A stretch of DNA of 64,000 nt from Sphingomonadales bacterium. Its GTDB lineage: Bacteria > Pseudomonadota > Alphaproteobacteria > Sphingomonadales > Sphingomonadaceae. The position numbers and the translations under genes are program-made. The stretch lies in contig SEFZ01000020.1 in assembly GCA_004173185.1 (NCBI GenBank), forward strand, positions 18,132 to 82,131, read 5' to 3'. Positions 39,598 to 64,000 of the stretch are shown here, piece after piece. Each line of letters opens with the position of its first letter. Within the stretch, counting starts at the first letter, position 1. The notes under the pieces are model-generated. The model was not told the DNA's origin. It searched no databases and was given only the letters and a program-made list of their open reading frames with translations.

Positions 39598-39612
39598 GTT
39601 CCGCTCTTGTTC
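39598..39612 (+). promoter_or_regulatory. LexA (SOS) box upstream of recA
   Basis: GTTC-CGCTCTT-GTTC exactly matches the alphaproteobacterial LexA consensus GTTC-N7-GTTC. It lies 78 bases before the recA ATG, and an additional GAAC follows shortly after, which forms an inverted arm with the second GTTC. A nearly identical box is found at 63085. Confidence 0.88.
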
Positions 39613-61295: not shown

Positions 61296-62024
61296 ATGGC
61301 ATCATTCGACAAGCCGCCGACTGGCACCACTACAGTCAAATGGCGCTTCCCCGAGATTCATCCCGAGGGACGCAAATATGTGGCGATTGCCGCCGCGATC
61401 GCGCTCCTCAGCCTGTTTATCTTCGATTTCATCACCTGGCCGCTGGTGTTTCTGACCCTTGGCGTTGCCGCGTTCTTCCGCGATCCGGTGCGCGTCACGC
61501 CGCAGGGGGAGGGACTGATCGTCTCGCCCGCCGATGGCCTGATCACGATGATCGAGCGCGTCGAGCTTCCGCCCGAACTGCGCGGACCGCAGGCATTGGG
61601 CGACAAGCCGATGCTCCGCGTCTCGGTGTTCATGAGCGTGTTCGACGTCCATGTGAACCGCACGCCGATCACCGGCACGATCAAGCACGTCATCTATGTC
61701 AGCGGCAAATTCATGAACGCAGACTTTGACAAAGCGAGCGAAGAGAATGAGCGCCAGCATTTCGTGGTGGAGGACAAAGCAGGTGTCCGCTTTGGCTTCA
61801 CCCAGATTGCCGGCCTCGTCGCGCGCCGGATCGTCAGCTTCGTCAAGGCGGGTGACATAGTTGTTGCCGGCCAGCGCGTCGGCCTGATCCGATTCGGCAG
61901 CCGCGTCGATGTGTTCCTGCCCGAAGGCTACGGTTGTGCCGTCGCGCTCGGCCAGCGTGCCGTTGCGGGAGAAACCATTCTCGCTAAGCGCGGCGTGGCT
62001 GACCTGGCGGGCGTATCCCAGTGA
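61296..62024 (+). CDS. psd: phosphatidylserine decarboxylase
   Basis: Psd (242 aa, short form) decarboxylates phosphatidylserine to phosphatidylethanolamine at the membrane. The self-cleavage Gly-Ser is at about residues 201-202 in RFGSRVDVFLP, with SPADGLI and FMSVFDVHVNRTPITG upstream. One N-terminal membrane segment is seen. The TTG at 61290 is an alternative; ATG 61296 with AGAGG upstream is preferred. Its stop overlaps the pssA GTG. Confidence 0.96.
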   Translation: MASFDKPPTGTTTVKWRFPEIHPEGRKYVAIAAAIALLSLFIFDFITWPLVFLTLGVAAFFRDPVRVTPQGEGLIVSPADGLITMIERVELPPELRGPQALGDKPMLRVSVFMSVFDVHVNRTPITGTIKHVIYVSGKFMNADFDKASEENERQHFVVEDKAGVRFGFTQIAGLVARRIVSFVKAGDIVVAGQRVGLIRFGSRVDVFLPEGYGCAVALGQRAVAGETILAKRGVADLAGVSQ

Positions 62025-62836
62025 GCATTCCGCCAAGGGTCAAGCGCCTACGCACGCCCCGCGTCCGCCGCGGGATACCACTTCGCACAATCGCTCCCAA
62101 CGCCGTCACCGCGGCCGCATTGTGCTCGGGGCTCACCGCGATCCGCTTCGCGATGGACGCCAAGTGGCATGAGGCCGTGCTGATGGTGCTGATCGCCGGC
62201 ATCCTCGACGGGATCGACGGAAAGGTCGCCCGGATGGTTCGTGGCGAAAGCCGCTTCGGTGCAGAGCTGGACAGCCTGTCAGACGCGATCGCGTTCGGCG
62301 TGGCGCCAGCATTGATCCTCTATCTCTGGTCGCTTCAATATCTCGGCAATTTCGGCTGGATGGTCGCATTGGTCTACGCATTGTTCTGCGTGCTGCGCCT
62401 TGCGCGCTTCAATGCCGGGATCGACAATGAGCAGCCGCACAAGTCCGCAGGTTTCCTGACCGGGGTTCCGGCACCCGCAGGCGCCTTGCTCGCGCTTGCT
62501 CCGCTGTATCTGTGGCTATCGACCGCAGAGCCGCATCTCACTCAGCCCTATCTGGTCGCGCCCTGGACCTTGATGGTCGCGCTGTTGATGATCTCCAGCC
62601 TTGCGACCTATGCGCCGGTAATCCGGCTCAAGCAGCGCATCCGCTTCGAAGTACTGGTGATATTGGCAGCGCTGATCGCCGCTCTCGTCGCGGCGCCCTG
62701 GCCAACGTTAGCCGGGATCGCCTTGCTCTATCTGGCGACAATCCCGTTCAGCATTCGCAGCTATCGCCGGGTCAAGCTGCTGCGCGCATCCCAACCCGGG
62801 CGGGCGAGCGAACCGGAGCCGACGAGCGAGCCGTGA
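62021..62836 (+). CDS. pssA: CDP-diacylglycerol--serine O-phosphatidyltransferase
   Basis: PssA (271 aa) makes phosphatidylserine, the substrate of Psd. The CDP-alcohol phosphotransferase motif DGKVARMVRGESRFGAELDSLSD (D-G-x2-A-R-x8-G-x3-D-x3-D) is intact, with several membrane helices. It starts with GTG overlapping the psd stop. The last residues (SEPEPTSEP) are a non-conserved tail. Its 3' end overlaps the convergent 71-aa ORF by 65 bases. Confidence 0.95.
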   Translation: MSIPPRVKRLRTPRVRRGIPLRTIAPNAVTAAALCSGLTAIRFAMDAKWHEAVLMVLIAGILDGIDGKVARMVRGESRFGAELDSLSDAIAFGVAPALILYLWSLQYLGNFGWMVALVYALFCVLRLARFNAGIDNEQPHKSAGFLTGVPAPAGALLALAPLYLWLSTAEPHLTQPYLVAPWTLMVALLMISSLATYAPVIRLKQRIRFEVLVILAALIAALVAAPWPTLAGIALLYLATIPFSIRSYRRVKLLRASQPGRASEPEPTSEP

Positions 62837-62987
62837 CGCGCGCCGGCCGCATCGGCAGCGCTGGCATGGCAGAAGAAGCGAACAAAGCGCGGTAGCGATG
62901 AAGCTGCGGACGTACGCTGATATAGAGCGTCCAGGCCGAAGCAGCGAAGGCAGTTGCGAAGAGCAGCACGGAAAGCAAAGCAGTCAT
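62772..62987 (-). CDS. small membrane protein, probably SOS-regulated (71 aa)
   Basis: A 71-aa protein with one N-terminal membrane helix (MTALLSVLLFATAFAASAW, possibly a signal anchor), then a basic, proline-rich tail. AGGGGA lies eight bases before the ATG, a good ribosome site. Upstream is a TTGACA element, immediately followed by a GTTC-N7-GTTC SOS box. It overlaps the 3' end of pssA on the other strand. I recognise no family. Size and topology resemble damage-induced division inhibitors such as SidA and DidA of Caulobacter, by analogy only. Confidence 0.65.
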   Translation of the reverse strand: MTALLSVLLFATAFAASAWTLYISVRPQLHRYRALFASSAMPALPMRPARVTARSSAPVRSPARVGMRAAA

Positions 62988-63079
62988 TTACCCGGTCCCC
63001 TTTTCGCCAACGCGGCGGGAATCCTAATGATTCCCTACGTTTGGCCCCGCATGACGTTCCTTGTCCGCGTTCTGACCCC

Positions 63080-63108
63080 TGTATGTTCCGCTCATGTTCC
63101 GCTGTCAA
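63080..63108 (-). promoter_or_regulatory. putative SOS promoter with LexA box
   Basis: On the minus strand: -35 TTGACA (63108-63103), then GAAC-ATGAGCG-GAAC (63099-63085, plus-strand GTTC-CGCTCAT-GTTC), and a weak -10 CATACA (63085-63080) with a 17-base spacer. The box differs from the recA box by one base in 18 when flanks are included. LexA bound here would block the promoter. The plus-strand DHFR-like gene, 72 bases away, is the other possible target. Confidence 0.72.
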
Positions 63109-63170: not shown

Positions 63171-63698
63171 ATGGCGAGGATCGTCTTTGGAATGAACCTC
63201 TCGCTCGACGGTTATGTCGATCATGAGAAATTTGCACCCGACCCGGCGTTGTTCGGCCATTGGATAGAGCATGTGCGCGGCCTGACGGGGAGTATGTATG
63301 GCCGCCGCATGTATGAAGTGATGCGCTATTGGGACCAAGATAAGCCCGAATGGACATCGGAGCATCGCGCCTTCGCGACCGCGTGGCGGAGCCAGCCTAA
63401 ATGGGTTGTGTCGCGCTCGTTGAAGGCAGTCGGCCCCAATGCGACGCTCGTCGGTGATCTTGCGGCCACGATACGCCAGCTCAAGGCCGAGCAGGGCGGG
63501 GAGATTTCGGTTTCCGGGCCGGAACTGGCGCAGAGCGTTACCGATCTTGGCCTTGTCGATGAGTATCGACTCTACTTCCACCCCGTGGTGCTCGGCAGCG
63601 GCAAGCCCTTCTTTGCGGGGCCTCGGCCGCCGCTCCGCCTGGTCGCCAGCGATCCGATCGGTGGGGAGGCCGTTCGTTTGATCTACGTTCCTGCCTAG
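63171..63698 (+). CDS. dihydrofolate reductase family protein (RibD C-terminal-like)
   Basis: A 175-aa protein of the RibD_C/DHFR-like fold. MNLSLDGYVDHEKFAPD at the N terminus, GRRMYEVMRYW, KWVVSRSL and the late GPELAQSVTDLGLVDEYRLYFHPVVLGSGKPFF are the familiar signatures of the YyaP/YwjB-type reductases. The exact substrate is not known for this group. It is divergent from the 71-aa membrane protein. Confidence 0.93.
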   Translation: MARIVFGMNLSLDGYVDHEKFAPDPALFGHWIEHVRGLTGSMYGRRMYEVMRYWDQDKPEWTSEHRAFATAWRSQPKWVVSRSLKAVGPNATLVGDLAATIRQLKAEQGGEISVSGPELAQSVTDLGLVDEYRLYFHPVVLGSGKPFFAGPRPPLRLVASDPIGGEAVRLIYVPA

Positions 63699-63830: not shown

Positions 63831-64000
63831 ATGGCGGCACCTGTCGTCTCCATGCAGGCATTGCTCGAATCGGGCGCACATTTCGGCCACCAGACGCATC
63901 GCTGGAACCCGAAGATGAAGCCTTACATCTTTGGCGACCGTAACGGCGTCCACATCATCGATCTTTCGCAGACCGTTCCGCTCTTCGCGCGCGCACTCGA
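63831..64000 (+). CDS. rpsB: 30S ribosomal protein S2, N-terminal part (partial)
   Basis: The first 56 codons are in the window ([35 protein letters not shown]...). The pattern [35 protein letters not shown] is the conserved start of S2, including the HxGH region. S2 binds the small subunit late in assembly and S1 docks on it. GGAAGGA precedes the ATG at a suitable distance. The gene continues past the window end. Confidence 0.96.

Follow-up and report, generated by a model that had tools for sequence, protein, structure and literature searches.

Near the end of the 64-kb stretch of DNA analysed here (the window), the minus strand carries an open reading frame (ORF) for a small membrane protein of 71 aa (62772..62987), and ahead of it stands a promoter with a predicted LexA site. 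The -35 element TTGACA (63103..63108) and the -10 element CATACA (63080..63085; family consensus CATAaA) lie on the same strand with 17-base spacing, and the LexA box is an exact match of the form GAAC-ATGAGCG-GAAC (GAACATGAGCGGAAC, 63085..63099, minus strand), which reads GTTCCGCTCATGTTC (GTTC-N7-GTTC) on the plus strand. The minus-strand order is CGCTTGACA-GCG-GAACATGAGCGGAAC-ATACAGG and, because the spacer is 17 bases long, the box fills the gap between the two elements, its final base being the initial base of the -10 element. The first base of the box lies 112 bases from the ORF start, the predicted 5' leader has about 86 nt (62988..63073, minus strand, from an inferred transcript start 7 nt past the -10 element), and a ribosome-binding site GGGGA (62996..63000, minus strand) is placed 8 nt ahead of the ATG. 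A half-site pair of the form GTTC-N9-GTTC is also found at 63055-63071, just downstream of the -10 element and around the predicted transcript start. The coordinates agree with what an earlier, sequence-only reading of this DNA had described, that is, TTGACA followed by a box inside the 17-base spacer, a 71-aa minus-strand ORF with its ribosome site, and a box nearly identical to that of recA (GTTCCGCTCTTGTTC, 39598-39612, in the same window). The same reading called it the second SOS box, which holds within the window but not genome-wide, where further boxes are found at lexA, dinB, a uvrD-like gene, dnaE2 and a radical-SAM gene.

The neighbouring genes are encoded on the plus strand. The pssA gene (phosphatidylserine synthase; 62021..62836; TIGR00473, PF01066) is convergent with the small ORF and overlaps it by 65 bp. 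On the other side, the start of rpsB (63831..64000) marks the ancestral divergent neighbour, which is in the region of 91 of the 93 loci collected from the genus and of 49 of the 60 other genera sampled, and the interval that separates rpsB from the SOS promoter has received an inserted RibD_C/DHFR-like gene (63171-63698).

A single match to the box is by itself weak evidence, since GTTC-N7-GTTC occurs five times in the window against 1.3 expected; the 5.07-Mb genome has 130 matches, and 87 to the reversed pattern. The comparison was extended to the genus by synteny, used instead of a single-protein search that returned many compositional matches above E 0.001. The convergent neighbour pssA was found in 144 of 151 genus genomes and the flank beyond it was taken for 80. 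These 80 of the 93 loci were thus chosen on pssA only, with neither box nor ORF taken into account, and 13 were added from an ORF search. A homologous ORF is present in all 93 loci (profile HMM), with an exact GAAC-N7-GAAC upstream of it in every one, at a box-to-start-codon distance of 100-190 bases in most of them. The sequence-only reading had staked its proposal on the box being kept by relatives that bear the ORF, and in the genus it is kept in 93 of 93 genomes. The N7 stretch takes 89 distinct words while GAAC...GAAC stays constant, and freely varying bases between fixed half-sites are the pattern expected of a LexA site. At least five of the six TTGACA letters occur 9-11 nt ahead of the box in 92/93 loci, against 0.7% at control positions, and the bases after the second GAAC are A (98%), T (86%) and A (85%) across the genus. 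The combined pattern TTGAC-N3-6-GAAC-N7-GAACA is found 0-2 times per genus genome (the reversed control pattern, 0), and in nearly all of the 20 genus genomes with a match the small-ORF promoter is the sole one. Some loci of the genus (30/93, e.g. L031, L033 and L054) also have another LexA box in tandem, 23-32 bases ahead of the main one, with the spacings falling into two classes of 23-25 and 29-32 bases; the window genome is without it.

Beyond the genus, one representative from each of 60 other Sphingomonadaceae genera was sampled. The exact box occupies the same interval in 55 of these genera, and in 53 it is accompanied by an ORF of 55-140 aa with an N-terminal hydrophobic segment, whereas after dinucleotide shuffling of these intervals the box appears in 0.7% and the box with an ORF in 0 of 1200. 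A TTGACA with no more than one mismatch is found 9-12 nt ahead of the box in 44 of the 53 genera (control 0.4-0.7%), and the ORF ends in AA or VA in 51 of them. Two genera (g31 and g32) have the ORF away from pssA and rpsB in some genomes, presumably beside lon/hupB (L124, L126) or adk/secY (L125) as read from the translated flanks, and a box still precedes the ORF match, at a distance of about 50-180 bp. The box travels with the relocated ORF, which links it to this ORF and not to pssA or rpsB. Between rpsB and an rnhB-like gene, one g31 genome (L138) has two such small membrane ORFs in tandem (887-1166 and 1485-1776), both of which end in EAA and which represent a local duplication. A broad profile run on a class-wide sample of 192 genomes yielded no convincing family member outside Sphingomonadaceae, with one weak match located within a 658-aa frame, although fast-evolving small proteins may escape such a search. 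On these comparative grounds the small ORF is a core gene of the family, normally present in single copy per genome.

The same motif marks other SOS genes of the window genome. In lexA itself (L204), TTGACA and GTTCCTTGTCTGTTC are just ahead of the start, and GTTC-N7-GTTC boxes are directly upstream of recA, dinB, a uvrD-type helicase gene, dnaE2 and the radical-SAM gene. An identical promoter layout precedes, in another family of the order, a gene recognised by eye that we take to be uvrA, a classic SOS gene. The small ORF thus shares with this regulon a box that overlaps the promoter, of the same kind as that borne by lexA and known SOS genes, and its control by LexA is close to certain from sequence comparison, given the conservation of box with ORF, the placement in the promoter and the recurrence of the motif at lexA, recA and other SOS genes. 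SOS control of a small one-helix protein, as the earlier reading had put forward, thus has strong support from comparative genomics. In the window genome this precise layout of TTGAC and box recurs at one other promoter, on a small contig (L230, G000:C109:100-2500), flanked on one side by an ABM-domain gene and on the other by a 135-aa ORF without Pfam match; this ORF is followed by a helix-turn-helix antitoxin-like ORF, and the two are possibly a HigBA-type pair. At another locus (L232, G000:C121:20100-22500), an SOS box is 17-25 bp from the radical-SAM gene and a divergent 373-aa ORF.

The ORF is, with hardly any room for doubt, genuinely coding: dN/dS is below 1 in 34 of 34 independent pairs and the pooled ratio of N to S differences is 0.36, indicative of purifying selection. 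A hydropathy scan and AlphaFold2 both place an N-terminal membrane helix at about residues 3-25 (62913..62981, minus strand). The AlphaFold2 model, built from a shallow input alignment of five sequences (the window protein and L200-L203), consists of a single helix over residues 2-37, with block-mean pLDDT of at least 87 over residues 1-30, and a mostly disordered tail beyond. The 146 family proteins compared have a median length of 77 aa, all but two have a single hydrophobic segment, and the product is almost surely a single-helix membrane protein. The hydrophobic segment begins at about residue 3-4, with a median net charge of 0 on its N-terminal side and of +7 on its C-terminal side, so that by the positive-inside rule the Arg/Pro-rich tail is predicted to be cytoplasmic (C-in). 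The sequence is loosely conserved outside the helix and the tail end, and no interaction surface stands out.

The most conserved feature of the protein is its extreme C-terminal end. The window protein ends in Arg-Ala-Ala-Ala (62775..62786, minus strand), a candidate ClpXP degron. Of the family proteins, 133/146 end in AA and 86 in RAAA; among the long ORFs of the window, 5 of 99 end in AA. In Caulobacter, the Ala-Ala end of CtrA is required for turnover and changing the terminal alanines to aspartate stabilises the protein (PMC4433202), and ClpXP of this organism recognises non-polar C-terminal residues (PMC8973945). By these precedents the Ala-Ala end is a plausible degron, and we consider the assignment somewhat probable by analogy.

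No usable sequence match for the small protein was found in Pfam, NCBIfam, PHROGs or PDB, and the window protein and six relatives have no Pfam match above cut-off. A match to PscE (PDB, E 0.0017) concerns a 35-aa chain, looks compositional and was rejected. A prophage lysis protein (holin or spanin) was likewise discarded, as the matches are only short and weak, including an Rz-like spanin match of E 0.0015 over 19 Arg-rich residues in one relative, and the gene is core and chromosomal. The literature found on the sphingomonad SOS response is limited to SOS expression in Sphingopyxis granuli, where lexA, recA and imuAB-dnaE2 are induced together and the small gene is unnamed in the main text of the study (PMC6472365). 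The protein had been called undescribed from the sequence, and this agrees with the Pfam and NCBIfam searches and with the papers found, priority being uncertain.

Some similarities are seen between the small protein and several known systems. SidA of Caulobacter crescentus is also a small, LexA-controlled inner-membrane protein of an alphaproteobacterium and blocks division via FtsW (PMC4211646), but it has 29 aa against 58-123 aa here; the two are set apart by description, and about 190 genomes across the class outside Sphingomonadaceae gave no convincing member of the small-protein family. DidA of the same species is closer in size, with 71 aa, one transmembrane helix and induction by damage (PMC4211646), but it is SOS-independent (DriD) and its contact with FtsN needs the periplasmic part of FtsN, whereas the small ORF has a LexA box ahead of it and a tail predicted to be cytoplasmic; this distinction, too, is one of description. 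YneA (Bacillus subtilis), SosA (Staphylococcus aureus) and ChiZ (Mycobacterium tuberculosis) are SOS-induced small membrane proteins, and YneA acts on FtsW and is rapidly removed by proteases (PMC13396833). YneA has an extracellular LysM domain, while the window protein and six relatives have no LysM by Pfam and are predicted C-in, and Pfam and NCBIfam searches revealed no sequence relationship to YneA, SosA or ChiZ. SulA (PF03846) resembles the proposed protein as an SOS division inhibitor removed by proteolysis, but it is a soluble FtsZ inhibitor and the small ORF has no SulA match. The features shared with the group of SidA, YneA and SosA are SOS control (from comparative data), a single transmembrane helix and small size, and on the best reading the protein acts like SidA, YneA or SosA but forms a family of its own within this established type, without recognisable homology to any known family.

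SulA is absent from 61 of 61 genomes (the window genome and 60 relatives; PF03846), the E. coli control being positive. This absence, together with the small membrane proteins that fulfil this task in Caulobacter, Bacillus, Staphylococcus and Mycobacterium, favours a role in division, and in the SOS response late division is commonly blocked by integral membrane proteins of small size (PMC13396833; PMC4211646). That the small protein is an SOS-induced division inhibitor, one of the two roles offered by the earlier reading (the other being a membrane regulator), is suggested by analogy, and we regard the chances as evenly balanced.

Taken as a whole, the data are best explained by a LexA-repressed, family-wide small membrane checkpoint protein, an explanation that may well be right or wrong in equal measure. 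In the SOS pathway, DNA damage activates RecA, which leads to the cleavage of LexA. In undamaged cells, LexA bound to the GAAC-N7-GAAC box would block the promoter, as motif, position and conservation suggest, and LexA cleavage after DNA damage would switch the small gene on. The single N-terminal helix is predicted to enter the inner membrane, leaving the Arg/Pro-rich tail in the cytoplasm, and division would be held back, most likely via a membrane-embedded division protein of the FtsW/FtsI/FtsN type, by analogy with SidA and YneA. With the predicted C-in topology, unlike that of YneA, the target would have to be inside the membrane or on its cytoplasmic side. When LexA returns, the Ala-Ala end would let ClpXP (or FtsH) remove the protein and division would restart; against this degron step, ClpXP acts less usually on membrane-anchored proteins than on soluble ones. 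A Sphingomonadaceae-wide checkpoint of new design, with a cytoplasmic Arg-rich tail and an Ala-Ala/ClpXP recovery switch and unrelated to SulA, SidA, DidA and YneA, is a more tentative proposal, which we hold to be possible and somewhat short of probable.

Other roles have to be weighed against a checkpoint function. Small bitopic proteins commonly tune larger membrane proteins, and the product could be an SOS-induced modulator of another inner-membrane machine, such as an envelope stress sensor, a transporter, a protease or a phospholipid enzyme. The cytoplasmic Arg-rich tail, different from YneA, fits this possibility, as does the adjacent pssA, which makes phospholipid; pssA, however, is convergent and not co-transcribed, it is apart from the ORF in g31 and g32, and no partner shows conserved linkage except rpsB, itself not obligatory, so we judge such a modulator unlikely, if still worth serious thought. 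More improbable is an SOS toxin like TisB, which would depolarise the inner membrane and send cells into dormancy. SOS control, small size and a hydrophobic helix are common to both, and the core promoter is covered by a LexA box, an arrangement that gives tight repression and would suit a harmful product. Nevertheless, TisB is a much smaller protein whose gene has a structured leader and an antisense RNA, while 19 leaders of the small ORF have no conserved fold, with a single 4-bp stem (RNAalifold), and a pore would need neither the long charged tail nor the conserved AA end. The gene is also core in the family and normally single-copy, not patchy like toxin-antitoxin genes, and this conservation argues against a selfish toxin.

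Two further explanations concern the box rather than the protein. The box might serve a divergent gene, since it lies 72 bp upstream of the ATG of the RibD_C-like gene and rpsB is the usual divergent gene. On the other hand, in 92/93 genus loci the -35 and -10 elements are directed at the small ORF. Neither the remaining 92 genus loci nor the 60 other genera examined have the RibD_C-like gene, yet the box is kept there, and where the ORF is away from rpsB the box has gone with it; control of either gene was rejected on these grounds and is very improbable. A coincidence of a chance box with a chance ORF could draw on the surplus of matches in the window, some of which look accidental, such as the match at 63687, where the RibD_C-like gene ends. 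It is refuted by the family-wide conservation of promoter, ORF, C-terminus and a box whose N7 varies, a combination that shuffles do not yield, and its probability is close to negligible.

No description was found of how sphingomonads halt division after DNA damage, and SulA is lacking there; the small protein is the best candidate so far for this missing division brake. The gene has seemingly been missed because it is small and variable. The pattern TTGAC-N3-6-GAAC-N7-GAACA offers a simple means of recognising SOS promoters in these bacteria. Induction, division phenotype and proteolytic recovery can each be tested on a single core gene that carries its own SOS promoter and a suspected degron, and a large group of environmental bacteria gains one more gene in its SOS regulon.
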